From assembly GCA_023135195.1 (NCBI GenBank), contig JAGLTQ010000059.1:1-32675 (forward strand): a stretch of 32,675 nt of DNA, written 5' to 3'. The DNA is from Gammaproteobacteria bacterium. GTDB lineage: Bacteria; Pseudomonadota; Gammaproteobacteria; UBA6429; Thiohalophilaceae. This document shows, one piece after another, positions 8,039-32,675 of the stretch (within the stretch, counting starts at the first letter, position 1; each line of letters begins with the position of its first letter). The notes under the pieces were generated by a model. That model did not search any database, was not told the origin of the DNA, and saw only the letters and a program-made list of their open reading frames with translations. The position numbers and the translations under genes were made by a program.

Positions 8039-8284
8039 TTTTCAGCTGTTGAATCTGTCCTGCTAAAAGGGAGTTCTAAAACTTTGATAGGTGGGCGTTA
8101 TTGCTCTATACAAGGTGTAAGGGCGGCGCAACTTCGACTTAAAGACAGTGAAACGGGGCAAATACAATCTTTGTATCAAACGGTTTATGATAAAAATGTA
8201 TTTTATGATTTACCTGAGCTTAAAGAAAATCAGAAATTATTTAGCAGATCTCTGGATTTACTGACAACAGGCATCGCAATATAA
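8039..8284 (+). pseudogene. Gene remnant with GGRYCSIQG motif
   Basis: The frame is open from a TAG at 8036 to TAA at 8282 and reads ESVLLKGSSKTLIGGRYCSI, then QGVRAAQLRLKD and LYQTVYDKN. There is no plausible ATG or ribosome site; TTG 8084 falls inside the conserved-looking part. It looks like the 3' part of a gene whose beginning was lost. I vaguely associate the RYCSIQG-AAQLRL pattern with small proteins near envelope-stress regulators, but do not assign it. Its last 55 bases overlap the 3' end of the convergent methyltransferase gene. Confidence 0.4.
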
Positions 8285-9123
8285 TCCAAGAGTGGATGTG
8301 ACTTTCCATAATGTATTATTTTTATATTAAGATCGTTATCAGCTTTTTTAAAAATATAACTAAAATCATTAAGCGAAATAGGGTAGTCACGCATATTCAC
8401 ATGTTTATACGTTGAATCAGCGCATTCAAGTCCTGCATGTTGTTCAATTAAACTCTGACGCAGAAGTTTGCTATAAGTTAGTCGCCATTTTACATCAGGT
8501 GCGTTCCATGCCAGTTCATTTTTTGTAATATCAGGTAGTGCGATACCATTAATAAGCGCAGGCTCCAATAAACTGAAAGATTCATTTATATTATCAGGGT
8601 GGTGGTCAGGTCTTCTTTGATAGGGCTGATCATTTGGCCGATAAACATCATGATTAATATATACGCCTTGAGGGCTTAATGTTGTGCTGATTTGCGTGGC
8701 CAGATAATAGACTTCTTCAGGTGTACCATGATGAAGGTTGAGTCCCATAAAAATAATGTCATATTCTTCTTGCAGCAAACATGATTTTGGATCCCATGCG
8801 TTGCCTTCATAAATATTTATCTGCTGAATATTTTCAGGAAACTGAAACTGATAACGGGCAAAGTTGACTTGATCCGGATTTATATCTATGCCGGTATAAT
8901 CGAAATTTCTATCAGGAAAATTGCTTATCATCCGGGTAATAGATACGGGCTCAGCACCACAGGCAAGATCAAGCACTTTAATGGTTTGAGTCGAATCATG
9001 GTTTTCAAGTAATGCCTTAATAATACGTGAACCATAGATAATAGCTTCACGGTGAAATAAAGCATTACTCTCAACGACGCGAGAGTAGCAACCATCTTTA
9101 CTAAAGAGTTTTTCTTTACGCAT
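8230..9123 (-). CDS. Class I SAM-dependent methyltransferase
   Basis: 297 residues. The SAM-binding motif I reads VLDLACGAEP at about residue 50, the acidic loop after strand 2 reads YTGIDINPDQVNFA, and the post-motif region reads DIIFMGLNLHHGTPEEVY. The following strand reads GVYINHDVYRP. This is a Rossmann-fold class I methyltransferase; the substrate is not evident. CmoA-like enzymes share the overall pattern, but I see nothing specific. The ATG follows the mmsA stop (TAG) by 6 bases with no clear ribosome site, so translation is probably coupled to mmsA. That makes it the last gene of the glc-garR-mmsA unit, an unusual place for a methyltransferase. Confidence 0.82.
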   Translation of the reverse strand: MRKEKLFSKDGCYSRVVESNALFHREAIIYGSRIIKALLENHDSTQTIKVLDLACGAEPVSITRMISNFPDRNFDYTGIDINPDQVNFARYQFQFPENIQQINIYEGNAWDPKSCLLQEEYDIIFMGLNLHHGTPEEVYYLATQISTTLSPQGVYINHDVYRPNDQPYQRRPDHHPDNINESFSLLEPALINGIALPDITKNELAWNAPDVKWRLTYSKLLRQSLIEQHAGLECADSTYKHVNMRDYPISLNDFSYIFKKADNDLNIKIIHYGKSHPLLDYIAMPVVSKSRDLLNNF

Positions 9124-9129
9124 AATGAA

Positions 9130-10608
9130 CTAAAATGTTCTTGACCATTCTTTTGGCCATCGTTCGGCGATAACTTTTGTTTGTGTATAAAATTCGATTG
9201 CGTGAGCACCTTGTGCATGAAGATCACCATAGAAACTTTCATTCCAGCCGCTGAATGGAAAGAAGGCCATTGGTGCAGCAACACCAATATTGATTCCAAT
9301 ATTACCGGCATCAACCTGATTACGAAATTTACGCGCTGCGGGGCCACTGTTTGTAAAAATACAACCCATATTGCCATATCTTCCTTTATTCACCATTGCG
9401 ATGGCTTCTTCCAATGTGTTGGCATGCATTAAGCCAAGAACAGGACCAAAGATTTCTGAGGTTGCAATATTTCCTTCCGGGTTAACGTTATCAATAACGG
9501 TTGGAGCAACAAAGTTACCTTGTTCATAATCTTTAACGGAAACGGCATGGCCACCTGCGATAACTTTTGCATTTTCAGTATGAGCATTATTTATAAACGA
9601 TTGAATACGTTCTTTACTGTCAGCATTGATAACAGGGCCAACCTGAACACCTTTATCAAAACCGGAACCGAGTACACGATTAGTAGCAGCTTCACAGATT
9701 GCTTCTGAAAATGTATTTTTAGCTTCAGCTACTGTAATAACTAATGAGTTAGCAAGGCAGCGTTGACCAGCACAACCAAAGGCACTGTCTGCAATAATTT
9801 GTGTTGTCATTTCAGGATCTGCATCGGGCATAATTACTACCGGGTTTTTAGCCCCTCCCTGTGCCTGTACACGTTTACCATTGGCCGCACCACGACTGTA
9901 AATATATTTGGCGACTTCTGATGAGCCAACAAAACTAATTGCTTTTATCTGGGGATGATCCAACATCGCGTCAACGGTTTCCTTGCCACCATTTACGAGA
10001 TTAACAATTCCTTTTGGTAAGCCAGTTTTTTCTAACAAACGTATGGCGAATACCATTGTTAAGGGGACTTTTTCAGAGGGTTTAATAATGCAGCTATTAC
10101 CACAGGCAATGGCATAAGGTAAAAACCAAAAAGGGATCATGCCAGGAAAGTTAAATGGCGTAATAATACCCACCACACCAATTGGCTGGCGGATCATATG
10201 TTCATCAATACCACGAGCGATATTTTCAAGATTACTGCCCATCAGCATTGAGGGTATACCGCAGGCGACTTCAATATTTTCAATTGCGCGTTGAAGTTCA
10301 CCTTTAGACTCTGCCAGTGTTTTTCCGCATTCAAGCGTTATTGTACGAGCGAGTTCATCGAGGTTTTCTTCGAACAATGTTTTAAGTTTAAATAAATATT
10401 GTACACGTTCAGTCGCGGGTGTATCTCTCCAGTCAATAAGCGCAGTTGATGCCGCTTCGACAGCGTGATTGATTTCGTTTTTAGTTGAAAGCGGGACTTT
10501 AGCAAGAACATCTTGATTAGCAGGGTTGATAACATCCTGAATTTCTGTGGATGTGCTTGCGATCCATTTTCCATCGATATAATTTTCAATAAGCCTGGCT
10601 TTAGTCAC
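9130..10608 (-). CDS. mmsA: CoA-acylating (methyl)malonate-semialdehyde dehydrogenase
   Basis: 492 residues, aldehyde dehydrogenase superfamily, MmsA/IolA type, which makes propionyl-CoA or acetyl-CoA from methylmalonate or malonate semialdehyde with loss of CO2. Family marks include [54 protein letters not shown], the catalytic Cys in [12 protein letters not shown] (about residue 285) and [11 protein letters not shown]. The start is GTG 10608, with AGGT 9-12 bases upstream. It lies 38 bases after a GarR/GlxR-type reductase and downstream of glcDEF. Here it may oxidise malonate semialdehyde or a related C3 aldehyde to acetyl-CoA for malate synthase, which is an inference. Valine degradation is the alternative, but no other valine genes are nearby. 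Confidence 0.85.
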
Positions 10609-10646
10609 GTTGTATTACCTATTCATGTTCTTGAGATTAAAATTGT

Positions 10647-11537
10647 TTAGTTATCTTTTTTTACGGTAATGCCGGATAACAGTTCTTGTAATTCGAGAAT
10701 GGAGATAGAATCATTTTCGCCTTTGCCCTGGCCAACGATAGCATTAAGATATTGAGTGACCTGTGAAGCACCGGGTAGTGCGATACCTAACTCATGAGCC
10801 GCTTCCATCACTATGCGCATGTCTTTATGGTGTAAACTGGATTTAAAGCCGGGTTTGAAATTTCTATCCAGCATTCGTTGGCCGTGTGATTCAAGTGCAC
10901 GACTACCTGCAAAGCCACCGAGTAATGCCTGACGTACTTTTACCGGATCAACACCTGAAGCACTGGCGAGAATATACGCTTCACCAATGGCCGCAATGGT
11001 TTGACCGATCAGAACTTGGTTACATGCTTTTGTTACCTGACCGGCACCATTGTCACCTATATGCACAATGTTTTTTCCCATAGCATTAAACAAAGGCAAT
11101 ACACGGTTAAAGATTTCTTCTTCACCACCAACCATAATAGACAGTGCGCCATCAATTGCGCCTTGCTCTCCACCTGATACAGGTGCATCTAACATGTGGC
11201 ATTCATTATCAGACAATGTTTTTGCTAAGGCTCTTGTTGCGGAAGGGGATATGGTACTCATGTCAACAACGACACTGTCTTTTTTAATACTCTTAAGGAT
11301 ACCTTCTTCACCTAAGATCACTTTTTCAACATCCTGAGTATCTGAAACACAGATAAAAATAATATCGGTATTAGCTGCAACCTCGGTTGAAGAGGAACAT
11401 GCTGTTGCGCCGGCATCAGTAAGTGGTTTCATCATTGCGGGTCGTCGTGCATACACCCACACAGAGTGACCTGAATTTAATATGTTTAGAGCCATCGGTT
11501 GGCCCATTATTCCTAATCCGATAAAACCAATTTTCAT
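10647..11537 (-). CDS. garR: Tartronate-semialdehyde reductase-like (GarR/GlxR)
   Basis: 296 residues, 3-hydroxyisobutyrate dehydrogenase superfamily. The N-terminal NAD(P) motif reads GFIGLGIMGQPMALNIL, the substrate loop reads LDAPVSGGEQGAIDGALS, and the catalytic Lys is in GAGQVTKACNQV (about residue 170). The C-terminal DRNFKPGFKSSLHHKDM closely resembles GarR of E. coli. GarR/GlxR reduces 2-hydroxy-3-oxopropionate to glycerate in glyoxylate metabolism. No glyoxylate carboligase is present in the window, so the substrate may instead be 3-hydroxypropionate, 3-hydroxyisobutyrate or L-threonate (LtnD is in the same superfamily). It lies between glcF and mmsA with short spacers, so it is co-transcribed. 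Confidence 0.82.
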   Translation of the reverse strand: MKIGFIGLGIMGQPMALNILNSGHSVWVYARRPAMMKPLTDAGATACSSSTEVAANTDIIFICVSDTQDVEKVILGEEGILKSIKKDSVVVDMSTISPSATRALAKTLSDNECHMLDAPVSGGEQGAIDGALSIMVGGEEEIFNRVLPLFNAMGKNIVHIGDNGAGQVTKACNQVLIGQTIAAIGEAYILASASGVDPVKVRQALLGGFAGSRALESHGQRMLDRNFKPGFKSSLHHKDMRIVMEAAHELGIALPGASQVTQYLNAIVGQGKGENDSISILELQELLSGITVKKDN

Positions 11538-11579
11538 TGATGCGTTATCCTTTATTAATAGATGTAAATTGAAGTTGTT

Positions 11580-12800
11580 TTAAGCTTCATCTAATAATTC
11601 AATCCAGTGTTTAACAGGAACAGTTGCTTTAGATTCGATATGTAACTGGCAACCAATATTTGCAGTGACGATGTAGTCAGGCTCACCGTTTTGTAATGAG
11701 GAAACTTTGTTTGTGAGTAGCTGTTGTGACAGTTTGGGTTGTAAGATGGAATATGTTCCCGCTGAGCCACAACAAAGGTGGCTATCAACAACGACGGTTA
11801 AAGTATAACCGGCTTGTTGTATGATTTTTTCAACCGTACCGGTAATTTGCTGGGCGTGTTGTAAAGTGCAGGGCGAATGAAAAGCCACATTTTTAATTTC
11901 GCTTGAGTTATTTGTAGATAACGTTGATAAATCTTCTTCTATTAATATTTCGCTAATGTCTTTACATAATACGCTGACCTGTTTTGCTTTTTCTGCATAA
12001 ATAGTGTCGTGTGCGAGTAGTTCAGCATACTCTTTAACCATGGCTCCGCAACCACTTGCTGTCATAACAATAGCTTCAGCGCCACCTTCAATATATGGCC
12101 ACCATGCATCAATGTTTTTACGCATTGCGGTAAGACCTTCATTATGGGCAGATAAATGATAACTTACTGCGCCACAACAACCTGCTTGTGGTGCACGAAC
12201 TAATGAGATGCCTAATCGGCTTAACACTCTTGCAGTTGCTGCATTGGTATTGGGTGATGTAGCCGGTTGTACGCAACCATCTAAAACTAACATTGTGCGT
12301 GTAGCGTTAGTGTCGGCAGGCCATTGTGTTACCGGTTTACGTTGAGGAATTTTTTTCTTCAGTGCCGAAGGTAATAATGGCGCAAAAGCCTGAGCTATTC
12401 GTAATAAAAATGTAAATGGTTTTGTGTAAGGTAATATTTTCCGTAATAGCCAACGTAATGATATTTCGGTAATGGGTCTGGGGACTTCTTTTTCAAGCAT
12501 ACCTCGTCCGATATCGAGTAGTCGTGAATAATGTACGCCAGATGGACAGGTCGTTTCACAAGAGCGACAGGTTAAACAACGATCGAGATGCTGTTGTGTT
12601 TTTCGGCTAACGTGTTGTCCTTCCAGAACTTGTTTTATAAGATAAATACGGCCACGCGGGCTATCTAGTTCATCGCCCAGTAGTTGATAGGTTGGGCAAG
12701 TGGCAGTACAAAAACCGCAATGTACACAGCTGCGAAGAATTGAATATGCTTCTTTACCGTCTGCTGTGTTTTTATATTTTTCGCTAATTGATGTTTGCAT
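11580..12800 (-). CDS. glcF: Glycolate oxidase iron-sulfur subunit
   Basis: 406 residues, the length usual for GlcF. Two 4Fe-4S motifs lie in the first 90 residues: CVHCGFCTATCPTYQ and CLTCRSCETTCPSGVHY. Two CCG-type cysteine-rich domains follow, with GCCGAVSYH at about residue 210 and HLCCGSAGTY at about residue 345. The subunit passes electrons from the GlcD/GlcE flavins towards the quinone pool at the membrane. It starts 6 bases after the glcE stop and is followed by the GarR-like gene after 42 bases. Gene order glcD-glcE-glcF is the standard one. Confidence 0.95.
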   Translation of the reverse strand: MQTSISEKYKNTADGKEAYSILRSCVHCGFCTATCPTYQLLGDELDSPRGRIYLIKQVLEGQHVSRKTQQHLDRCLTCRSCETTCPSGVHYSRLLDIGRGMLEKEVPRPITEISLRWLLRKILPYTKPFTFLLRIAQAFAPLLPSALKKKIPQRKPVTQWPADTNATRTMLVLDGCVQPATSPNTNAATARVLSRLGISLVRAPQAGCCGAVSYHLSAHNEGLTAMRKNIDAWWPYIEGGAEAIVMTASGCGAMVKEYAELLAHDTIYAEKAKQVSVLCKDISEILIEEDLSTLSTNNSSEIKNVAFHSPCTLQHAQQITGTVEKIIQQAGYTLTVVVDSHLCCGSAGTYSILQPKLSQQLLTNKVSSLQNGEPDYIVTANIGCQLHIESKATVPVKHWIELLDEA

Positions 12801-12806
12801 AATATT

Positions 12807-13874
12807 TTATAATTCTTTATACATTCGACCGGGATTAAAAATTCCTTTAGGGTCAAAGGCATTTTTAAGATTACGATGTAGTTCCATCATCTTCGGATGT
12901 AAAGGATGAAAGACTTCCTGATTATGATCACCATTTCTAAATAAACAGGCATGTCCACCAGCTTGTTGAGTGACTGCTCGAATTTTTTCTGCAGGTTCTT
13001 CACTGAGTAACCAGCGTTGTGCACCACCCCAGTCCAACATCCATTTACCTTCTAATTCCAATGGTTGAGTGAAGGGCGCTAAAGACAAGCGCCATAAAGG
13101 TAACGTTGAATCAAAGAAGGGATGTGTATGTTCATTAATTTTATGCCAAAAATTATCGTTTGCTGAAAGTTCATCTCCACCAATTTTTTGTTTTGCTGTT
13201 GCGACACTGCTTGGTGTGCCACATAAGCGTAAATAGAGACGCGAACCATCATAAAGAGCGGCTGAAATTGGGAGTGATGTTCGTGAGCGTCGTGCAATAG
13301 CATCAATTGCTGTTTGTTCGTCAATCTCTTTAATGAGTGTGATTTCTTTTTCGGTTTTAGGTAAAACTTTTAAAGAAACTTCAAGTAAAATTCCCATACT
13401 ACCTAACGCACCACACATTAAACGTGAAACATCATAACCAGCAACATTTTTCATAACCTCACCGCCAAAGTGGAGGATTTCACCTTTACCGTTAAGTAGT
13501 TTTATACCGAGTACATAGTCGCGTGCAGCTCCTGCATAAGGACGACGGTTACCGGATAAGTTGCATGCGACAGTGCCCCCCAGTGTTGCTGTATCACCAT
13601 AATGAGGGGGGTCAAAAGGTAATATCTGATTATTTTCAGCAAGTATCGTTTCTATTTCACTTAGTAAAGTGCCTCCACGTGCGGTGATGATTAATTCAGT
13701 GGGTTCATAATTAATAATACCGGAATTTCCATTAACCTCGAGTGTTTCACCAGAGGGAGTACGCCCATAGAAGGCTTTACTGTTGCCACCAATTATTTGC
13801 AAAGAATGATTATTCTCATAGGCATCAATAATATTTTTCTGCAATGTTAAAGATAGATCGGTCATGGTATTCAA
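12807..13874 (-). CDS. glcE: Glycolate oxidase FAD-binding subunit
   Basis: 355 residues, close to E. coli GlcE (350). It has a PCMH-type FAD domain with DTATLGGTVACNLSGNRRPY and VMKNVAGYDVSRLMCGALGS, both hallmarks of GlcE. The C-terminal AFDPKGIFNPGRMY is the conserved end of the FAD-linked oxidase family. It works with GlcD and GlcF to oxidise glycolate (and often D-lactate) to the 2-oxo acid. It lies 17 bases after glcD and 6 bases before glcF. Confidence 0.95.
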   Translation of the reverse strand: MNTMTDLSLTLQKNIIDAYENNHSLQIIGGNSKAFYGRTPSGETLEVNGNSGIINYEPTELIITARGGTLLSEIETILAENNQILPFDPPHYGDTATLGGTVACNLSGNRRPYAGAARDYVLGIKLLNGKGEILHFGGEVMKNVAGYDVSRLMCGALGSMGILLEVSLKVLPKTEKEITLIKEIDEQTAIDAIARRSRTSLPISAALYDGSRLYLRLCGTPSSVATAKQKIGGDELSANDNFWHKINEHTHPFFDSTLPLWRLSLAPFTQPLELEGKWMLDWGGAQRWLLSEEPAEKIRAVTQQAGGHACLFRNGDHNQEVFHPLHPKMMELHRNLKNAFDPKGIFNPGRMYKEL

Positions 13875-13891
13875 TAAGCCTGTGAATATTA

Positions 13892-15403
13892 TTAAAAACG
13901 TTCAAGTTCAGGGAAAGGGAGTTCACTATTGTGTACATGCATGGCACCAAACTCAGCACAGCGATGTAAAGTGGGTACAGCTTTGCCTGGATTGAGTAAT
14001 CCTTTTTCATCAAATGCAGCTTTTACAGCATGGAATTGTTGTAGCTCCATAGCTTTGAATTGCACACACATTTGATCTATTTTTTCTATACCAACACCAT
14101 GCTCACCTGTAATGGTGCCGCCAACTTTTACACAAAGCTCCAGGATTTTACCGCCAAATTCTTCAGTACGTTCCAGTTCACCGGGGATATTTGCATCGTA
14201 TAAAATCAGTGGGTGAAGGTTACCATCGCCTGCATGAAATACATTTGCCACTGGCAGATCATATTCTTTTGACATGTTAGTAATACTTTTTAAAACATCC
14301 GGCAAAGACTTTCTCGGAATAGTACCATCCATACAGTAATAATCTGGCGATATACGTCCGACTGCAGGGAAAGCGGCTTTACGGCCTTTCCAGAATAGCA
14401 TGCGTTCCTGTTCATCTTTTGCCGTTCGTATTTCGCTGGCATCACTTTGAATCAGAATCTCACGAACAATTAACACATGTTCGGATACGTCTTCATTGGT
14501 TCCATCAAGTTCACAAAGTAAAATTGCAGCAGCATCAAGTGGGTAACCTGCATGTACAAAATCCTCAGCTGCTTTAATGGCCAGTGTGTCCATCATTTCC
14601 AGACCTGCTGGAATAATACCTGCTGAAATAATATTGCCGACAGCTTCACCCGCTTTTTCAATATCTTTAAATGCGGCCAGAATAACTTGTGCGCGTTGAG
14701 GAATCGCCAATAACTTTACGGTCACTTCTACAATAATGCCTAACATACCTTCAGAGCCGGTCATTAATGCAAGTAAGTCAAAGCCCGGTGAATCAAGACC
14801 ACTGCTGCCAATGGTGACAAGTTCGCCATCCATTGTAATGATTTTAAGTTGCTGGATATTATGAACAGTTAATCCATACTTAAGACAATGTACGCCACCG
14901 GAATTCTCTGCGACATTACCGCCAATGGTGCAGGCGATTTGTGAAGATGGGTCTGGTGCATAATACAAATTATATTCTGCACACGCTTCTGAGATTGCAA
15001 GGTTACGTACACCGGGTTGTACACGAGCTACTCTGTTATTCGGATCAATATCAATAATGTCTTTAAACTTAGCGAGGCTTAATAGAATCCCGTTATCTAA
15101 TGGTAAGGCTCCACCCGATAGGCCTGTTCCTGCACCACGAGCAACAACAGGTACTTCATGTTCGTAACATAATTTAATAATGGACTGAACTTGTTCAACG
15201 GTATCCGGTAAACAAACAATCATCGGTAAATGTCGATAAGCCGATAGACCATCACATTCATATGGATGTAAATCTTCTGCTTCATGTAACACAGAATCTT
15301 TTGGTAATAGTTGAAATAATTTGTTTAGCAGAGATACTTTATCGAATGACAGCTGAGTTTTCTCTGTTTTTAATAATTTTTTATGGTCATCATTAATATT
15401 CAT
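13892..15403 (-). CDS. glcD: Glycolate oxidase catalytic subunit
   Basis: 503 residues. The FAD-binding PCMH domain includes VVARGAGTGLSGGALPLDNG and CTIGGNVAENSGGVHCLKYG. The C-terminal catalytic region carries NVFHAGDGNLHPLILYD and TGEHGVGIEKI, as expected for GlcD and related D-2-hydroxyacid dehydrogenases. It is the first gene after the TRAP operon terminator, so it probably has its own promoter in the AT-rich 15404-15463 stretch, where no strong -10/-35 pair is evident. Substrate is probably glycolate given malate synthase G in the same locus; D-lactate is also likely. Confidence 0.95.
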   Translation of the reverse strand: MNINDDHKKLLKTEKTQLSFDKVSLLNKLFQLLPKDSVLHEAEDLHPYECDGLSAYRHLPMIVCLPDTVEQVQSIIKLCYEHEVPVVARGAGTGLSGGALPLDNGILLSLAKFKDIIDIDPNNRVARVQPGVRNLAISEACAEYNLYYAPDPSSQIACTIGGNVAENSGGVHCLKYGLTVHNIQQLKIITMDGELVTIGSSGLDSPGFDLLALMTGSEGMLGIIVEVTVKLLAIPQRAQVILAAFKDIEKAGEAVGNIISAGIIPAGLEMMDTLAIKAAEDFVHAGYPLDAAAILLCELDGTNEDVSEHVLIVREILIQSDASEIRTAKDEQERMLFWKGRKAAFPAVGRISPDYYCMDGTIPRKSLPDVLKSITNMSKEYDLPVANVFHAGDGNLHPLILYDANIPGELERTEEFGGKILELCVKVGGTITGEHGVGIEKIDQMCVQFKAMELQQFHAVKAAFDEKGLLNPGKAVPTLHRCAEFGAMHVHNSELPFPELERF

Positions 15404-15451
15404 TTTATATTTTATCGGTTGTAAAATTATGATGTTGGAAAAATTATGTTT

Positions 15452-15496
15452 GAAAAAAGATAAAACTCTCTACTGGATTATCCAGCAGAGAGAGTT
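15452..15496 (-). terminator. Rho-independent terminator of the TRAP operon
   Basis: On the minus strand, AACTCTCT...CTGGA pairs with TCCAG...AGAGAGTT (8-bp and 5-bp stems separated by a small internal loop, arms 15464-15477 and 15481-15496), followed by TTATCTTTTTT. It lies just after the dctM stop and before glcD, so it separates the TRAP operon from the glc unit. Confidence 0.85.
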
Positions 15497-15509
15497 CACA
15501 TCTTAATAG

Positions 15510-17036
15510 TTAGCCATAGACCAAACCTGGTAACCAGGTAACGATTCCCGGTAAAAGAATACAAAGTATTAAGCCTACTGTTTGTAATCCCAGGAAGATC
15601 AATGCTGATCTGAATATCGTTGCCATGCTGATTTCTGGTGGACAAACTCCACGCAAGTAGAAAAGAGCATAACCAAAGGGCGGGCTGATAAATGACATCT
15701 GCATGTTCACTAAATAAAGTACACCAAACCATAAAACAACTTTATCTCCCGGAACTGGCGGTAAACCAAATAAACCATCAAAGGTTAATGATTTAATGAT
15801 GGGTACAAAGATAGGCACGGCGAGTAATAAAATACCTACCCAGTCCAGGAACATTCCCAGAACGACAAGAATAACCATCATTAAGAATAAAATGCCATAC
15901 GAAGACAACCCGGTACTAAGAATTGTTTCAGTAATGAAGTCCTGTCCACCTTGTAAGATATAAAAACCAACAAAGATTGATGCACCAAAAATAATCCACA
16001 AGACCATAGCGGAAGCTTTTGCGGTACTGGCTGAAGCATCTTGCAGACCTTTAAAAGTAAAACGTTTATGTAACATGGCGACAAGGATAGCGCCAAAGGA
16101 ACCTATTCCCGCTGCTTCGACCGGTGTAGCGATACCACCAAAAAGTAGACCTAAAACGGTAAAGACTAACAGTAAAGGTGCAATTAACTGGCGTAATAAG
16201 AGTAGTTTCTCGATTAAAGTGAGACGTTCTTCTTCCGGAATGGCCGGGCCTAATGATGGGTCTCTCCATGAGCGAAATAATATATAGGCAACGTACATAC
16301 TGGATAACATTATTCCTGGCACGATTGAGCCCAGATAAAGTTCACCAACAGATTGTTGTGCAACGACCGCATAAAGAATTGCAAGAATAGAAGGCGGAAT
16401 TAAGATACCCAATGTACCACCAGCCATAATCGAGCCTAATGCAATTTCATGATTGTAGCCACGCTTTAACATAGCAGGTAATGCGATGATTCCCATGGTA
16501 ACAATAGCGGCACCGATAACACCGACCATTGCTGCAAGAATGGTTGATGCCAGAATAGTTGCAGCAGCAAGACCACCATTGAGTCCGCCCATCCATTTGT
16601 AGACAACATCAAACATTTCTTCAATTAAGCCAGCACGCTCCAGCATTGAAGCCATGAATATAAACAAAGGTATGGCAGCCAGATCTGAGTTGGTCATCAT
16701 CGGGAAAATACGACTAGGAATGATGTTTAACATGGTCTGGTCACCGACCAGGTAAATGAAAACAACACCCAACCCACCTGTGACAAAGGCAAGCGGCAGT
16801 CCCATCATTAGTGCAACAAATAAGGTACCAAACATTAGCCAGGTTAAATCACTGATATGCACATCTTCCAGCATTCCGGCAGTACTGAACAGGAAGTTTT
16901 CCTCTTCATAAGGATCGTAAAATAGAATATTAATCAACTCGACAAGAACAACAAAGCTCAAGCTCGCTGTTGCGAGAATCATTAACCACGTCCAAAATTG
17001 ACTTGACGAGATTTTTGTATACTTAAAAGAATTCAT
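15510..17036 (-). CDS. dctM: TRAP transporter large permease subunit (DctM)
   Basis: 508 residues with many hydrophobic segments. This is the longer DctM type (about 500 rather than 430 residues) that pairs with large DctQ subunits. Family features include LAAIPLFIFMASMLERAGL, VGVIGAAIVTMGIIALPAML, GGTLGILIPPSI and the C-terminal MSFISPPFGYALFYLRG. It forms the sodium-driven channel with DctQ and receives ligand from DctP. The ATG follows the dctQ stop directly, with GAGGAG about 10 bases upstream inside the end of dctQ. Confidence 0.93.
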   Translation of the reverse strand: MNSFKYTKISSSQFWTWLMILATASLSFVVLVELINILFYDPYEEENFLFSTAGMLEDVHISDLTWLMFGTLFVALMMGLPLAFVTGGLGVVFIYLVGDQTMLNIIPSRIFPMMTNSDLAAIPLFIFMASMLERAGLIEEMFDVVYKWMGGLNGGLAAATILASTILAAMVGVIGAAIVTMGIIALPAMLKRGYNHEIALGSIMAGGTLGILIPPSILAILYAVVAQQSVGELYLGSIVPGIMLSSMYVAYILFRSWRDPSLGPAIPEEERLTLIEKLLLLRQLIAPLLLVFTVLGLLFGGIATPVEAAGIGSFGAILVAMLHKRFTFKGLQDASASTAKASAMVLWIIFGASIFVGFYILQGGQDFITETILSTGLSSYGILFLMMVILVVLGMFLDWVGILLLAVPIFVPIIKSLTFDGLFGLPPVPGDKVVLWFGVLYLVNMQMSFISPPFGYALFYLRGVCPPEISMATIFRSALIFLGLQTVGLILCILLPGIVTWLPGLVYG

Positions 17037-17735
17037 TTATTTTTTCTCCTCGCCCAAAAGACGGAACAACATAATATCTTTAATGAGTTTAGAGATGCCG
17101 GCGAGTGTGAGTAAAATCGCACCGGTGAACATCAGTAATTTAACCGGCCAGTACTGGATACCCCAGGTTTCCAGTGTGATTTCATTCATTCCATATGAAC
17201 TTACGAAGAACGTCCATGACGTCCCCATCAGTGCCAAAACAAAAATAAAGAAAAATACAGAGGTAAAAATATCCATACCGGCACGGCCACGTGGCGGTAA
17301 CTTCACATACAGAATATCAACGCGAACATGAGCACCATGCAACATCGCATAAGCGCCCGTCATAAGGTATTGCATGCCAAATAACAAGAAAGAGGCTTCA
17401 TGAACCCATATGGTTGGCATATTAAATATATAACGCATTACTACTTCATAAAAATAAAAGACCACGGCATTAACAGTCCATAAAGCAATAAAGATACCGG
17501 TGAAATCACTGACTTTATCAATAAATTTAGTGACGCGGTTGCCTTTTACATGAAGTGCAGGGTCTTCTTCAGCTAAAATGTCAAGCGCAAGCTCTTCATC
17601 TGGAGTAAGGATTGGTTCTTTTTCACTGGTTGCTTTGCGTTTAACCATATACATAAACACTAACGGCATAATCGTAAGCCAACCCCAGTATGCCCAGTGT
17701 GGCAGGACGAAACCGAAGCCTTGTAAATCATTCAT
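17037..17735 (-). CDS. dctQ: TRAP transporter small permease subunit (DctQ)
   Basis: 232 residues, at the long end for DctQ. Membrane segments occur at about residues 14-30, 80-100, 120-140, 160-180 and 205-222. The short motif RVDILYVKLPPRGRAGMD matches the conserved DctQ loop. An acidic insert (LTPDEELALDILAEEDPAL) lies between the first two segments. It is joined end-to-start with dctM, so they are made as a pair. Confidence 0.9.
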   Translation of the reverse strand: MNDLQGFGFVLPHWAYWGWLTIMPLVFMYMVKRKATSEKEPILTPDEELALDILAEEDPALHVKGNRVTKFIDKVSDFTGIFIALWTVNAVVFYFYEVVMRYIFNMPTIWVHEASFLLFGMQYLMTGAYAMLHGAHVRVDILYVKLPPRGRAGMDIFTSVFFFIFVLALMGTSWTFFVSSYGMNEITLETWGIQYWPVKLLMFTGAILLTLAGISKLIKDIMLFRLLGEEKK

Positions 17736-17772
17736 ATTGCAATCTCCAACACGACTTAATATTTAGATGAGA

Positions 17773-17802
17773 GTTGAAGATGGCATCTTCGCCATCCTCA
17801 AC
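17773..17802 (-). other. Intra-operonic hairpin between dctP and dctQ
   Basis: GTTGAAGATGGC (17773-17784) and GCCATCCTCAAC (17791-17802) form a 12-bp stem with one mismatch (a G-U pair in the RNA is possible) and a 6-base loop. There is no T-tract in the direction of transcription. Such hairpins commonly protect the dctP message so that binding protein is made in excess over the permease. Confidence 0.65.
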
Positions 17803-17822
17803 TTCATTTTCAGGTGACAAAA

Positions 17823-18965
17823 TTATTTAAGTTTATAACCTTTGATATCTTCTTTGGTTACATAACCCATGATGTCATTTTGCATATAGTCAAGTTGCAG
17901 TTTGAAAACACGTTTCGCATCTACATTTTTGTTTGCCCATTTGAACCAGATAGGAATAGCCGCACGACGGAACTTAGCCACATCTTCTGTACTTAAACGA
18001 GAAACCTTACTGCCTGATTTTTTGAACTTCTCAAGGGCTTCAACATTACGCTTCTGAATAGCAGTGTAATGCTCAAGTGAGTAAGCTTTAACTTGCTCTT
18101 CAACCAGTGCTTGTAATTCAGGAGATAGACGATCCCATGCGCGTTGGTTTACTGTTAGATCCATCAAATCTACAGGTTGATAAATAGACATCATGCCTGG
18201 AGGTCCAAACAAAATATTTTTAGTTACCTGACCAAAACCAAGATCCCAGTTTACGGCAGGACCTACATAATCTGCCGCATCAATCGTGCCTTTTTCCAGC
18301 GCAGGGAAAATATCTGAGCCTGGTAAACTAACAGTACTGGCACCGAATGATTGGAACACTTCAGAAACCATGCCACCTGGTACTCGTAGTTTCAAACCTT
18401 TAAAATCAGCTAAGCTTTTAACGGGTTTTTTAGAGTGAATGATATTAGCGTCATGATGAATAGGGCCGACATACACAAGGCCTTGTTTCGCGTAAATTTC
18501 ACGTGCCATTTCCAACATACCTAAGCTGTAGAACATAGTGTCCCATTGTGCTGGTTGATCAGGGCCTGCTGGGTAAGATGATAAAAATACTGAAGCTGGA
18601 ATCTTACCTGCCCAGTACAAGGTAAATGGATTCATTCCTTGTAATACACCTGTTTTTACAGCTTCAAAAAGGGCATTGTTATCTGCTGCAACTGATTTTG
18701 CAGGGAAGGCTTTAACGATTAACTGGCCATTTGATTTTTCAGCAAAACCATCGCACCATTTTTTGAATAATGTATAACCTGTCGTACCCGCATCCCACGT
18801 AGTCTGGATTTTCCATTTATGAACTTTACCTTTTGCACTAGCAATCATCGGGGCACCTAATATCGCGGTACCACCAATTGCAGCAGCAGATTTTATGAAA
18901 CTACGACGGCTAGTAGTTTTGTCCACCTTGTCAGTTACAATAGTAGGTTTTTTATTATCTTTCAT
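17823..18965 (-). CDS. dctP: TRAP substrate-binding protein, Tat-exported (DctP/TakP-like)
   Basis: 380 residues from ATG 18965, chosen because GAGGAG lies 9-14 bases upstream; the frame extends 20 codons further without support. The N-terminus has a twin-arginine motif, SRRSFIKS, followed by a hydrophobic segment and SAKG cleavage region. The mature protein has GGMVSEVFQSFGASTVSLPG, then ALEKGTIDAADYVGP, like the TakP/lactate-binding branch of TRAP proteins that bind 2-oxo or 2-hydroxy acids. This suggests a small hydroxy- or oxo-carboxylate ligand, as inference only. The gene follows the DUF1537 kinase after 144 bases and precedes dctQM. Confidence 0.92.
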   Translation of the reverse strand: MKDNKKPTIVTDKVDKTTSRRSFIKSAAAIGGTAILGAPMIASAKGKVHKWKIQTTWDAGTTGYTLFKKWCDGFAEKSNGQLIVKAFPAKSVAADNNALFEAVKTGVLQGMNPFTLYWAGKIPASVFLSSYPAGPDQPAQWDTMFYSLGMLEMAREIYAKQGLVYVGPIHHDANIIHSKKPVKSLADFKGLKLRVPGGMVSEVFQSFGASTVSLPGSDIFPALEKGTIDAADYVGPAVNWDLGFGQVTKNILFGPPGMMSIYQPVDLMDLTVNQRAWDRLSPELQALVEEQVKAYSLEHYTAIQKRNVEALEKFKKSGSKVSRLSTEDVAKFRRAAIPIWFKWANKNVDAKRVFKLQLDYMQNDIMGYVTKEDIKGYKLK

Positions 18966-18995
18966 TTTTGACTCCTCTTTTGTTGTCGATATACA

Positions 18996-19053
18996 TCGAT
19001 CATCGATTAGGGGGTTACCCCCCATGTCGAGCTTATAATTATGAATTATTCAT
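18996..19053 (-). promoter_or_regulatory. Palindrome-rich leader of dctP
   Basis: The 144-bp gap between the kinase gene and dctP holds two ATCGAT sites, a G/C palindrome GGGGGT-T-ACCCCC (19010-19022) and ATGAAT-T-ATTCAT (19041-19053). The last could be an operator or part of an internal promoter, letting dctPQM be expressed apart from the upstream genes. No promoter consensus is convincing. Confidence 0.3.
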
Positions 19054-19109
19054 TATTAAGGTATGTTTATACTTATTTATTGTTAAGTTAGCAATCGTCT
19101 AGATAATAT

Positions 19110-20444
19110 TTAAGTTACAGGTTTCGTATTTTTTGATAGATATATATAAGCAGTAGCTAATGCATCTTCATCGCCAACGTTACCTGGAAAAATAACGACA
19201 GGCATATCAGGAAAACGGGGGTGATCAGCAGGACAACAGACCACCGAACAACCCGGTAATATTTGTCCAACAACACGTGAAGTGCGTAGTGATAAACCAC
19301 TACTCAAAACATCATTTGAAGTGATTCCTCCTTTACTAATGAGGTAACCCAGCGTTTCAGGTAAGTTGCGAACAACATCCATAAGAAATTCAGATACCTG
19401 TTCACCAAAGGCTAAACGCGTTTGCTGGTCTGAAAATACTTTTTCAACACGACTAGTGTAAATAACGGGGGTTAAATTTTTCGCATGTGCTTCTTCAGCA
19501 CGTTTCAATACATCTTTTAATAGTGAATCACGTTCAGTTGGAATACGCTGAACATCCACTTCCAGAGAAACGACATCATCTTGCTTGAGTAGTTGTTCCA
19601 GTTGTTGAGTTGTCTTTTTAACGTGTGATCCAACAATGATTGCACCGGCTTTACCATTACGGACATAGTTAGACATGGCCTCAGCTGCAACAGGTTGAGG
19701 AGGCAAATTGGCTAATGAGGTTAATAAACTGGCGCCGCTACGGAATAAGAAACGTTTACCTTGCCTGGTTGCTTCGGTTAATTGTAAAGAAAAATTATTT
19801 AGATCATCCTGAGTTTCACAATCCACTGCACAACAGACATTGTTTTTTAGATTTAATAAACGATCTTTGCTGTTGCCTCGTACATCGCTTAATAAAAATC
19901 GTTCAACTTGATCTGCCTTTATACGTCCAGATGTTTTTTCTTCAACATAATCAGGAAGGTAACTGTGCGAGTAACCGAATACAGAATCGTTTGCGAATTC
20001 AGTTTCGTGAACAGGTATTTCTTTTCCATCAACTACCAGATAGTGAATGCTGTCACGTGTAATACGTCCACCTTCAAAAAATGCAGGGACAAGAAAATGT
20101 GCATCAAAGGGACCAAGTTCTTCGGCAATGACATCGGTTTCAACAGGATAGTGTCCGCGTAATGTTGAATCAGAACGGCTAACCAGAATAGGGTTAATGA
20201 TATGTTCTTCCTGCTTTAGTTCATCAAGAATTTGATTGATGTTTTGACATACTTCATGAGTTATATCGGCAGCACGATTCGCATTCATACCGCGGGTATT
20301 TGTAAGAATAAAAAATAGCGGGGCAGGGTCAAGCATTGCTTCACGTAATGTCTCAACATCCCAACGGGTTAATAACAAACAGCTATGTACTGTTTGTGAG
20401 CCGGTTGGATCATCATCAAGAACAATAATTTTTGTATATTTCAT
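19110..20444 (-). CDS. Four-carbon acid sugar kinase family (DUF1537/OtnK-like)
   Basis: 444 residues. The two-domain DUF1537 architecture is clear: an N-terminal substrate domain with LDDDPTGSQTVHS and SRSDSTLRGHYPVETDV, and a C-terminal nucleotide-binding domain with GAIIVGSHVKKTTQQL and SKGGITSNDVLSSGL. Characterised relatives phosphorylate 3-oxo-tetronate, D-threonate or 3-oxo-isoapionate with ATP. The usual partners (OtnC aldolase/decarboxylase, OtnI isomerase, PdxA2 or a RuBisCO-like protein) are absent here. Instead the gene follows a phosphoketolase-like enzyme after a 99-bp gap containing a long hairpin, and precedes a TRAP transporter. The ribosome site is weak. The kinase family is secure; the substrate is not. 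Confidence 0.9.
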   Translation of the reverse strand: MKYTKIIVLDDDPTGSQTVHSCLLLTRWDVETLREAMLDPAPLFFILTNTRGMNANRAADITHEVCQNINQILDELKQEEHIINPILVSRSDSTLRGHYPVETDVIAEELGPFDAHFLVPAFFEGGRITRDSIHYLVVDGKEIPVHETEFANDSVFGYSHSYLPDYVEEKTSGRIKADQVERFLLSDVRGNSKDRLLNLKNNVCCAVDCETQDDLNNFSLQLTEATRQGKRFLFRSGASLLTSLANLPPQPVAAEAMSNYVRNGKAGAIIVGSHVKKTTQQLEQLLKQDDVVSLEVDVQRIPTERDSLLKDVLKRAEEAHAKNLTPVIYTSRVEKVFSDQQTRLAFGEQVSEFLMDVVRNLPETLGYLISKGGITSNDVLSSGLSLRTSRVVGQILPGCSVVCCPADHPRFPDMPVVIFPGNVGDEDALATAYIYLSKNTKPVT

Positions 20445-20543: not shown

Positions 20544-22763
20544 TTACTTGGTTAAATTTACTACACGATCAGCCATTGCATCAGGTGTAATACCGTTGAA
20601 CTCCATAACTTCAGTTGGCGAAGCAGTGGTTTCACCTCGTTTCCAACAGAAAGTGTCACGTTTGTTTGCGCGTGTACGTAACAATACGGGCTCTAATGGA
20701 GCACTTGGGCCACCACTCACTGCAAGTAGTACGTCAGCATCAAACAAAACATTAAAGTGATCATCATCCATAAACTTGTTATCAGGTTCTGATACCGTAT
20801 CCCAGGCAACATCAGTCGGACGATATAAACGACGAGGATTAACAACCGCTACAATACGTACGCGGTAACCTTGTGCTTCAAGTTTATCTTTCGCTTCAAA
20901 CACAGGCAGGAAGACCATGTCGCCTGTTACTGCAAAAACAACCGTGCCTTTATCACCTGCTTCACTTTCATAAATAGTTGCGGCACCTTCTTCGATGGCG
21001 TGCAGTGACTCTTCAACTGTCATGTAAACAGGCAGCGGACTTTTAGATGCAATAATCACCATGCCTTTATTGAACGAATTCGTTGCCCATTCATAAGCCA
21101 CCTGAATTGCATTCGCGTCACAAGGGAAAAGTGGGTAAACATTACCGTTACGCATCATGCCGGCGAAAAAGTTTTCAATTTCAGGACGTTGATGAGTCCA
21201 GCCATTTCGACCTTGTTCTAAAGCACCCGCAGTAAACATGGTAACGATAGAAGGTGTTTTACGACGTAACTCGGCCATAGCCTGAGTCACGGTTTGCACA
21301 ATCGGCCAGCCGTTAATAGCAAAACTCTCATACGATAACCATAAGGCACGTGAACCAAACAATGCCAGACCCGCAGCAAGACCGGCGCAGGCATCTTCAT
21401 TTAAGGGTTCATAAACCTGACCATCAGGTTCCTGGTTATAAAGTGGATCTACTGTGGGGTGACGAATTTTTAATGCATCATTGATGTTCTTCATCGCAGA
21501 GGCTTCGTTACCATCTGCATTAGTGACAATAAAACGTTTATCGGCTTGACCAACAGCCGCCACCAGGGCACCCATTGCAGTTGCAGGAACCGCCTTTTCT
21601 TCTTTATTGAATTCATTAATCGGTAACTTGCCTAATGGAGCAAGATCAAGAACATGTTCTGTTACTGATGTTTTAACAGCAGGTCCGCCGCCAGCACGAG
21701 AGAAGTTATCACGCACAATTTGCCATGCTTCAGGGTTTAACGCACGACGCTGCAGACCAGCAATAATATGCGGTTGATCTAAGGTATCCGTTGGATACAA
21801 GTTATGAGATTTAGAACCAACAGTATGTACACCCGCCCCTTTCATTTGTTTAATGATAAAAACGGTTAAGGTTCCACTCATGGCAGATTTAGCAGCTTTA
21901 TCAACACCCTCAAGAATTGCTTGTGTAAAAGCTAAACGTTTCTCATGTGAGAAATAAGTACTATCGATATAGTCGCCTTCCTGACCGGAGTCATCAAAGT
22001 CTTTAGCATCAATGAGAACAACTTCTTTAAAGCCGTGACCTTTCCAGTAATTCGTCATTTCTTCATTGGTCATACGTGAAACCATTGAATGATGTTCCTG
22101 GCTATAACCATTCCATACCAGGGTAGGCAGGAAGTTCGTTGTCTCTGGATAAGCGGTATTGAAATGCATCATCGACGAGAGGATATATGGTTCGCCCATA
22201 CCACCATCACCCATTGTGAACGGGAATAATTTTTCAGGGTGTAATAATGCACCGGCCATTGCAAAGTGTTGGCCCTGACCTAATGGACCAGCTGGGGATA
22301 AGAGGCCAGGTACTGCTCCTGACAAGTGACCAAGCAGGCCTTCACGCTCACGAAAACGTGTCTGCATATCGGAAACTGTTTTGATGCCCATTTCTTCAAG
22401 CGAGCTATCCAAAAACATCGCGCTATAGAAACCGGGTGCATGGTGCCCCACTTCGGTAACAATATTAGTATGGCCAAGCATAACTAATGCCGCATAAGCA
22501 TCCGCACTTGAGGCAAAACCACCCGGATGGCCTGAGCCTTTTGAACCACAAACTTGCAAAGTGAGATAACGTAATGCGTCTGCCATTAATTGTGATTGAT
22601 ATACAGCCTCAGGGTTTGCTGGGTCAGTGATAGCATTCTGGCCTTCAGTTATAACAGCCGTAGCGGCTTTTTCATTATATTCTGGCCATGCACTGCCATA
22701 ATGTTGGATACCTTCACAAAATGAAGGAGTGTTTTTTGTGTTTAATTCTTCTGCTGAGCTCAT
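20544..22763 (-). CDS. Phosphoketolase/transketolase-like TPP enzyme
   Basis: 739 residues from ATG 22763, chosen because AGGAG lies 10-14 bases upstream; a start 12 codons earlier has no ribosome site. The TPP motif GDG...N is present: GDGGMGEPYILSS, with the Asn of LVWNGY about 31 residues later. The N-terminal GSKGSGHPGGFASSADAYAA looks like transketolase. Other parts look like phosphoketolase: the middle LVWNGYSQEHH, then NGWTHQRPEIENF, DANAIQVAYEW and the C-terminal WKRGETTASPTEVMEFN (phosphoketolases have NGFSHQDP, PPDAN and KEEGTTTTPF). It is shorter than Xfp (about 790) and longer than transketolase (about 660). It probably cleaves a ketose- or oxo-acid phosphate into C2 units. First gene of an operon with a DUF1537 kinase and TRAP importer, divergent from iclR. 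Confidence 0.82.
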   Translation of the reverse strand: MSSAEELNTKNTPSFCEGIQHYGSAWPEYNEKAATAVITEGQNAITDPANPEAVYQSQLMADALRYLTLQVCGSKGSGHPGGFASSADAYAALVMLGHTNIVTEVGHHAPGFYSAMFLDSSLEEMGIKTVSDMQTRFREREGLLGHLSGAVPGLLSPAGPLGQGQHFAMAGALLHPEKLFPFTMGDGGMGEPYILSSMMHFNTAYPETTNFLPTLVWNGYSQEHHSMVSRMTNEEMTNYWKGHGFKEVVLIDAKDFDDSGQEGDYIDSTYFSHEKRLAFTQAILEGVDKAAKSAMSGTLTVFIIKQMKGAGVHTVGSKSHNLYPTDTLDQPHIIAGLQRRALNPEAWQIVRDNFSRAGGGPAVKTSVTEHVLDLAPLGKLPINEFNKEEKAVPATAMGALVAAVGQADKRFIVTNADGNEASAMKNINDALKIRHPTVDPLYNQEPDGQVYEPLNEDACAGLAAGLALFGSRALWLSYESFAINGWPIVQTVTQAMAELRRKTPSIVTMFTAGALEQGRNGWTHQRPEIENFFAGMMRNGNVYPLFPCDANAIQVAYEWATNSFNKGMVIIASKSPLPVYMTVEESLHAIEEGAATIYESEAGDKGTVVFAVTGDMVFLPVFEAKDKLEAQGYRVRIVAVVNPRRLYRPTDVAWDTVSEPDNKFMDDDHFNVLFDADVLLAVSGGPSAPLEPVLLRTRANKRDTFCWKRGETTASPTEVMEFNGITPDAMADRVVNLTK

Positions 22764-22860
22764 TGAGGTAATCTCCTGACAATACGATAGCAATCGCATT
22801 GAGTTAACGGTTTTATGTCATTGCTTACTGGACTGCAATAACCATAGAATAAAAAGTGAG

Positions 22861-22895
22861 TTTTCACAATGTGTAATCGCTTTCATAATGCGAAA
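22861..22895. promoter_or_regulatory. Double operator A for the IclR regulator
   Basis: Contains two half-palindromic sites 19 bp apart: TTTTCACAATGTGTAA (22861-22876) and CTTTCATAATGCGAAA (22880-22895). The general form is TTTCA-yAATGy-GAAA, an inverted repeat typical in size for IclR proteins. The whole 35 bp matches 22971-23005 at 29 positions. It lies about 100 bases upstream of the phosphoketolase-like gene, so it probably controls that operon. Confidence 0.65.
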
Positions 22896-22970
22896 TCCAA
22901 ATAAAGTGAACTCTAATTAAACGAGCTTGTATGGGGGTTAAGCTGGTATATCGATAGGATATGTCTTACT

Positions 22971-23005
22971 ATTTCACAGTAAGTAATCGTTTTCATAATG
23001 TGAAA
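22971..23005. promoter_or_regulatory. Double operator B, overlapping the iclR leader
   Basis: Second copy of the 35-bp double site: ATTTCACAGTAAGTAA (22971-22986) and TTTTCATAATGTGAAA (22990-23005), again 19 bp apart, and 110 bp from copy A. The second site ends one base before the ribosome site GAGG of iclR, so binding here would block iclR expression (autorepression). Confidence 0.65.
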
Positions 23006-23014
23006 GAGGCTAAA

Positions 23015-23776
23015 ATGAGTAAGACTTCTTCAATCCAGGTTATTGATCGAATGGCATTATTACTGAATATCATGGCGCAATATGATGAAGCGGTAAGTCT
23101 GAAAATTCTTTCTGCCGAAAGTGAATTACACCCATCTACGGCTTTCCGTATTCTTTCTTCATTAACCAAACATCAACTTGTTGAACGTGATGATGCCGGT
23201 TATTACCACTTAGGTATCAAATTACTTCATCTCGGAGCCCATGTTCGCCAACGTGTTGGTCTGCGTCAGCAGGCAAAACCTATTATGAGAAAACTTCGTG
23301 ATGAACTGGGTGAAACTATAAATCTGACAATAAGAGAGAATGACGAAGTTGTTTATGTTGAGCGTTCAATTAGCGGCCAGATGATGCGCGTTGAACAGGT
23401 TATTGGTAGTCGTGCCCCTCTTCATGTAACCGCTGTTGGAAAGCTTATGTTGGCAGAATCCGGCGAAGAAGGCTGTCGCAAATATGCAGAGCGAACGGGT
23501 TTACCGGCTTATACAAAAAATACTATTACGGAAATAGATACTTTAATTAGTAAAACCAGGCAGGCACACCGCAATGGTTTTGCTTATGATGATGAAGAAG
23601 CAGAAAAAGGTGTAGGCTGTATTGGTGTATTAATTTATAACAATACAGGTGAAATTGCGGGTGGCTTATCGCTTTCTGCACCGATTGAACGACGCAAAGA
23701 GGAATGGGTACCCATTGTTATAGAGGCTGGCAAACGCATATCAGAAAGCCTTGGCTACTTTGGTTATTACCAATAA
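23015..23776 (+). CDS. IclR-family transcriptional regulator
   Basis: 253 residues from ATG 23015, which has GAGG (23006-23009) at the right distance; the frame extends 18 codons upstream but only through the operator. The N-terminal winged helix-turn-helix includes VSLKILSAESELHPSTAFRI and YYHLGIKLLHLG. The C-terminal effector domain has GSRAPLHVTAVGKLML, EAEKGVGCIGVLIYN and GGLSLSAPIERR. It is divergent from the phosphoketolase-kinase-TRAP operon and flanked by a duplicated operator, so it very likely regulates that operon and itself. IclR proteins often sense small carboxylates, such as glyoxylate, pyruvate or aromatic acids. The stop codon lies inside the target duplication of a MITE-like element. 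Confidence 0.93.
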   Translation: MSKTSSIQVIDRMALLLNIMAQYDEAVSLKILSAESELHPSTAFRILSSLTKHQLVERDDAGYYHLGIKLLHLGAHVRQRVGLRQQAKPIMRKLRDELGETINLTIRENDEVVYVERSISGQMMRVEQVIGSRAPLHVTAVGKLMLAESGEEGCRKYAERTGLPAYTKNTITEIDTLISKTRQAHRNGFAYDDEEAEKGVGCIGVLIYNNTGEIAGGLSLSAPIERRKEEWVPIVIEAGKRISESLGYFGYYQ

Positions 23777-23993: not shown

Positions 23994-24067
23994 CAATAAT
24001 TTATAAAGTGGGTTCAAGGAAGGAAATGACAGACCAACATACGAGCAATGTTGGCTCCGCTGCGCTC

Positions 24068-24260
24068 GGTAACTGCTCGGTCTTCGTTCCTGACGCGACT
24101 CTACCAATTCCATCCATGGAATTGTCCTGCGTTACTCTCGACAATTGCTCCTGCATTGTTCTCGGCAACTGCGTCCTGCGTTGCTCTACCTCCTCCATCC
24201 ATGGAGTCGTACCTTCAGCCATCCGTGGCTTCGTACCTCCTGCTTCCCTGCAGTCGTTGA
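24068..24260 (-). repeat. Dispersed CATGGATGG repeat, copy 2, with decaying tandem units
   Basis: Positions 24068-24138 repeat the blocks of 1775-1848: CTCGGTCTTCGTTCC, GACGCGACTCTAC, the palindrome ATTCCATCCATGGAAT and GTCCTGCGTT. Downstream to about 24260 are degenerate units built from CCATCCATGGA, CTGCGTTGCTCTACC and CCATCCGTGG. The whole 24003-24287 stretch is GC-rich compared with its neighbours and holds no credible gene; open frames on both strands are repeat artefacts. It follows the lutC stop directly. Confidence 0.75.
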
Positions 24261-24287
24261 GCCCACCTACAAAAATCACAAATAATG

Positions 24288-32559: not shown

Positions 32560-32641
32560 GAGGAAATACTCTTGGAGTGCTCATGAATTTGAACATGGAT
32601 GTTCTTATGCCGTGAAGCACACGACTACAGGGATGTAGGAG

Positions 32642-32675
32642 GTAGAGTAATGCAGGACAATTCCATGGATGGAAT
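32642..32675 (+). repeat. Dispersed CATGGATGG repeat, copy 3 (cut by window end)
   Basis: GTAGAGTAATGCAGGACAAT followed by TCCATGGATGGAAT is the reverse complement of the core of copies 1 and 2. The preceding 32580-32641 contains looser units (AACATGGATGTTC and ACAGGGATGTAGGAGG), as in copy 2. The repeat continues beyond the window. Confidence 0.7.

Follow-up and report, generated by a model that had tools for sequence, protein, structure and literature searches.

The window analysed here, the whole stretch of 32,675 nucleotides, carries two copies of a composite operator upstream of an iclR-family regulator gene; sequence comparison indicates that both are almost certainly binding sites of the protein which that gene encodes. 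The best explanation as a whole, with a probability of about 0.75, is that both copies are operators of this adjacent IclR protein, copy 2 acting on iclR itself and copy 1 on a divergent operon headed by a phosphoketolase-like gene. Double sites with this geometry are already known from the IclR family, and the operator is of a kind already described. What is particular to the window is that the whole tandem unit is duplicated and fitted to two separated promoters. The features concerned are:

8230 to 20444, minus strand: rest of the likely operon (domain and family matches), the core of which is conserved
20544 to 22763, minus strand: phosphoketolase/transketolase-like ThDP enzyme, first gene of the operon; the reading frame is open from 22799
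22841 to 22869, minus strand: predicted promoter of the phosphoketolase-like operon, at an offset from the operator that is conserved in relatives
22861 to 22895, plus strand: operator copy 1 (composite, 34-35 bp), 37.5 bits, assigned to the leftward phosphoketolase-like promoter
22862 to 22876, plus strand: site A of copy 1, TTTCACAATGTGTAA, inner half imperfect
22881 to 22895, plus strand: site B of copy 1, TTTCATAATGCGAAA, palindromic, fitting TTYCRYW3RYGRAA
22943 to 22972, plus strand: predicted iclR promoter; a -10 at operator position -5 is conserved in most relatives
22971 to 23005, plus strand: operator copy 2 (composite), 40.7 bits, at the iclR promoter and leader and abutting the ribosome site
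22972 to 22986, plus strand: site A of copy 2, TTTCACAGTAAGTAA, inner half degenerate
22991 to 23005, plus strand: site B of copy 2, TTTCATAATGTGAAA, palindromic
23015 to 23776, plus strand: iclR-family regulator, 253 aa (HTH_IclR and IclR_C), from a domain search

The first-pass annotation described two same-strand copies of 35 bp, identical at 29 of 35 positions and 110 bp apart, each with an inner period of 19 bp; all of this is correct, the 110 bp being the start-to-start offset in this genome. The palindromic form given there, TTTCA-yAATGy-GAAA, applies to the second site of each copy (site B) and not to the first. In site A the outer half TTTCACA is kept in both copies and the inner half is degenerate; the class-wide consensus has the same degenerate inner half (TTTCACAATACACAA). 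Single 15-mers with three mismatches are frequent by chance; the joint pattern of the copies never turns up in shuffled versions of the window (expected count 0). With a matrix built from other lineages only, the two copies score as listed above, compared with 6.0 bits for the next-best separate place in the window and a largest score of 11.7 bits in 100 simulated windows. Copy 2 runs right up to a likely Shine-Dalgarno sequence, AGAGG (23005-23009), which precedes the ATG at 23015. An in-frame ATG upstream, at 22961, would place copy 2 inside the gene if it were the iclR start; the point at which similarity to homologues sets in, 23015, makes this less likely.

Orthologues of iclR were collected from whole genomes and named metagenome-assembled genomes and represent 44 distinct loci. 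At 43 of these (weakly at one) the iclR start has a 34-bp composite operator next to it, always in the same orientation. The operator consensus, TTTCACAATACACAATCGTTTTCATAATGTGAAA, was taken from 36 loci that do not belong to the window's clade; it consists of a palindrome and, 19 bp before it as measured between centres, a site whose inner half is degenerate. Among genomes of the window's family, the composite pattern is found in 15/15 with this iclR and in 0/25 without it, counts which are not a clean probability as the pattern was designed partly from these same genomes and the genomes are related to one another. It occurs at the iclR locus only, and a reversed control pattern has a single match over all 40 family genomes. 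The 0/25 is nevertheless telling. The operator is also kept at loci where the divergent gene is glcD or (weakly) dctP, not the phosphoketolase-like gene. Co-occurrence with iclR and position at its promoter support the proposal that the copies are predicted operators of the adjacent protein. Absence of a copy from relatives that have the operon, which the first-pass annotation named as counting against its reading, is often seen and tells against the two-copy idea; the operator itself is kept. Elsewhere in the window's genome there are single palindromes with one mismatch; a genome-wide regulon was rejected because no further composite operator was found there. Within the window, the malate synthase and lactate genes are without the operator.

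Tandem IclR sites with centres 18-22 nt apart are recorded for 94 orthologous groups (Suvorova and Gelfand 2021, PMC8222616), and a WTT-11-AAW motif has been described for the family (PMC8222616). The 19-bp distance in both copies and in the class-wide consensus lies within that range. Site B of both copies fits TTYCRYW3RYGRAA at 15/15 inner positions, with the outermost W failing on one side in each; site A fits at 14/15 positions in copy 1 and 12/15 in copy 2. The double site here resembles the WTT-11-AAW tandem sites (PMC8222616) in its fit to TTYCRYW3RYGRAA, its 19-nt centres and the closeness of a site to the gene start, but differs from them in the degenerate inner half of its first site and in the duplication of the whole unit. 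In each copy, two dimers (or one tetramer) would occupy the tandem sites along the same face of the DNA; a pair of dimers at 19-bp spacing would agree with the published tandem IclR sites (PMC8222616). Site B would be the strong palindrome, and site A a weaker site with one good half.

The regulator passes both Pfam cut-offs (HTH_IclR, 40.1 bits against 22; IclR_C, 143.1 bits against 24). Its nearest NCBIfam model is BhcR (NF045644), at 175.1 bits and below the cut-off of 350. The ligand-site residues Asp212, Ser239 and Ser241 of E. coli IclR (residues from PMC11323563) are conserved in the alignment; residues 160/161 differ, being Ala-Val instead of Gly-Ala, and the methyl patch reads Met/Val/Ala/Val when aligned to E. 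coli IclR. These residues together suggest that the effector is probably a small 2-oxo acid. E. coli IclR and AllR are of the same protein family and share part of the ligand pocket (glyoxylate/pyruvate), but the window regulator scores 121 and 108 bits against their cut-offs of 380 and 406, and their targets are different. The regulator is 99.6% like that of one genus mate (G003) and about 63% like those of two others (G002 and G007), and it clusters with species from other families; the iclR locus has likely been horizontally transferred or replaced.

A sigma70 scan of the two genes gives no convincing promoter for either, and both predicted promoters are weak matches to consensus. The leftward promoter has a -35 TTGTGA (22864-22869, within site A of copy 1), a 17-bp spacer and a -10 TATGGT (22841-22846); the iclR promoter has a weak -35 CTGGTA (22943-22948), an 18-bp spacer and a -10 TACTAT (22967-22972) abutting copy 2. 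Transcription is predicted to begin close to 22834 on the leftward side and close to 22979 on the rightward side. Across relatives, the leftward -10 (ACCNTA on the plus strand) is at operator position -21, with a 17-bp spacer to TTGTGA, in 21 operators of ancestral type, and at -22 in two more. This promoter goes with copy 1 in the window's clade and with the iclR-side copy in the other two-copy lineage. The iclR -10 is at operator position -5 in most loci, whether single- or double-copy. Since each promoter sits at the operator, both overlap one and the same operator at single-copy loci. Protein bound at copy 2 would abut the iclR -10 and cover the probable start, shutting off its own gene. 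The autorepression suggested earlier fits the operator's position in most relatives, directly next to the iclR -10 and over the probable point where transcription begins; autorepression by copy 2 is well supported by this geometry.

Because the -35 of the divergent operon lies within copy 1, binding there would control that operon. Most simply this would be repression, with RNA polymerase blocked until binding is loosened by a small 2-oxo acid, glyoxylate for example. The control may instead be activation, because BhcR, the nearest relative to have been characterised, activates its target operon although glyoxylate weakens its binding in vitro (PMC11323563). A dual regulator of the BhcR/PobR/PcaU type, which would repress iclR from copy 2 and activate the phosphoketolase-like operon from copy 1, is accordingly a possible alternative, though on balance a doubtful one. 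Site B of copy 1 lies upstream of the -35, and the leftward promoter, TTGTGA-17-TATGGT, is weak, both as such a regulator would have it; however, the -35 hexamer itself is covered by site A, as in simple repression. The best NCBIfam match is to BhcR, an activator that is needed for growth on glyoxylate and glycolate (PMC11323563), but the match is far under the family cut-off. Like BhcR of Paracoccus denitrificans (PMC11323563), the window protein is a regulator of the IclR family encoded divergently from an operon for using glycolate/glyoxylate, with a proposed site near each promoter and the ligand-site Asp/Ser/Ser kept. Unlike it, the protein falls short of the NF045644 equivalog, which needs at least 350 bits, and differs in the hydrophobic patch and residues 160/161. 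No bhc-type genes are present among the annotated neighbours, and the divergent gene is phosphoketolase-like, not bhcABCD. PcaU-type sites with an extra half-site are also described in the IclR family (PMC8222616); PcaU, PobR and HmgR use a palindrome with an external direct half-site, like sites B and A, but their operators (summarised in PMC8222616) have a GTNCG-type motif and serve aromatic pathways.

The 43 loci with the operator have one copy in 25 cases and two or more in 18. Two or more full copies are present at 17; at L010 the second copy has an 18-bp inner period (read by eye), and one of the 25 single-copy loci (L046) is cut by the contig end. One locus has three copies (L039, positions 5741-5991), arranged as tandem composite operators 106 and 110 bp apart upstream of iclR. 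Spacing between copies in relatives is 74-127 bp: 103-112 and 127 bp in the window's clade, and 114-118 bp in the other main two-copy lineage. Helical phase (modulo 10.5 bp) is scattered, with a resultant of 0.30 for n=18 non-independent loci, and the 110 bp of the window is about 10.5 turns, which puts its copies on opposite faces. The geometry fixed at 110 bp and the DNA looping between copies that the first-pass annotation proposed therefore find no support, as spacing is variable and without a common helical phase and most relatives have a single copy. The duplication and its 110-bp distance are a local variant. An IclR tetramer holding both copies in a loop whose 110-bp length matters is quite unlikely. 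IclR proteins can be tetramers, and the copies have the same orientation at all two-copy loci and are mostly 95-118 bp apart; however, orientation is already fixed by promoter overlap, and 25/43 loci have just one copy. As a looping operator pair the copies were rejected, neither spacing nor helical phase being conserved. A better account of the copy in front of the phosphoketolase-like gene is that it is the operator of that gene's own promoter. That the copies serve a different regulator, or are a functionless chance or recombination repeat, is scarcely credible given their perfect co-occurrence with this iclR, their position at its promoter and a sequence conserved class-wide while the flanks diverge.

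With both copies taken as operators of the adjacent IclR protein, the ancestral state was probably one operator beneath two overlapping divergent promoters. In the window's lineage the promoter-operator unit would have been duplicated, with copy 1 keeping the leftward promoter and losing the rightward -10 and copy 2 keeping the rightward promoter. In the window's clade the rightward -10 is absent from copy 1 in 7/7 loci and kept by copy 2 in 6/7. Copy 2 in several relatives still has a weakened leftward -10, so the split of roles is incomplete. The pooled, ungapped upstream flanks of the two copies in this clade agree best in register (0.43, compared with at most 0.33 in other registers), over about 26 bp; promoter DNA was therefore duplicated together with the operator. 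Gapped within-genome alignments of 70-bp flanks are mostly not significant, and a recent tandem duplication of the whole 110-bp unit was rejected on this account; the duplication is old, as similarity is seen only in the pooled flanks. On the regulator tree, four switches between one copy and two are required, and well-supported branches force at least two of them; operator duplication probably arose at least twice. Duplication separates two promoters which overlap at one operator in single-copy relatives. It is tentatively suggested, at somewhat less than even odds, that a single bidirectional promoter-operator, shared by two divergent genes in most of the class, was duplicated independently in at least two lineages, each promoter gaining its own operator copy; the extra copy of the other lineage would then be the one adjoining the phosphoketolase-like gene. 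If true, this would be a recurrent case, readable from sequence, of a shared regulatory element dividing up its roles, and its regulator would mark an undescribed glycolate module (phosphoketolase-like enzyme, sugar-acid kinase and GlcDEF) without the classical glyoxylate carboligase. In that other lineage (L006-L019) the copies are separated by a terminator-like hairpin (GGCAGTGAGTATGACACTGCCTTTATTT in L008, for example), which looks as though it insulated one promoter from the other; there is no such hairpin between the window's two copies.

The first operon gene more likely starts at the ATG at 22763, behind AGGAG, and encodes a distant relative of phosphoketolase and transketolase. It is followed by genes for a four-carbon acid sugar kinase-like protein, TRAP DctP/Q/M, GlcD, GlcE and GlcF, and the operon also includes a tartronate semialdehyde reductase (GarR), a methylmalonate-semialdehyde-type dehydrogenase and a methyltransferase. 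The core conserved across the class is iclR, the phosphoketolase-like (XFP-like) gene, the kinase and GlcDEF; in the window its pieces are at 20544-22763 (ThDP enzyme) and at 19110-20444 and 11580-15403 (kinase-like, GlcDEF). Glyoxylate carboligase over the family cut-off is found in 0/40 family genomes, and the ThDP enzyme and kinase may form an undescribed route from glyoxylate. A literature search gave nothing relevant on the combination of glycolate, phosphoketolase-like and DUF1537. No RuBisCO large subunit was found in the window's genome (86% complete), so that uptake, and not photorespiration, is the probable source of its glycolate. The operator offers a specific way into an IclR regulon that recurs across the class and would control glycolate oxidase along with two further enzymes, a phosphoketolase-like one and a sugar-acid kinase, for which no joint role was found described in the literature searched; the locus is also a readable case of a duplicated shared divergent promoter-operator. 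On the other side of the regulator there are lactate-utilisation-type genes and malate synthase G. A dispersed intergenic repeat is present at 24050-24270, and also at 1774-1845 and 32621-32675; it consists of modules of 50-220 bases with about 50 matches in the genome, up to 99% identical.
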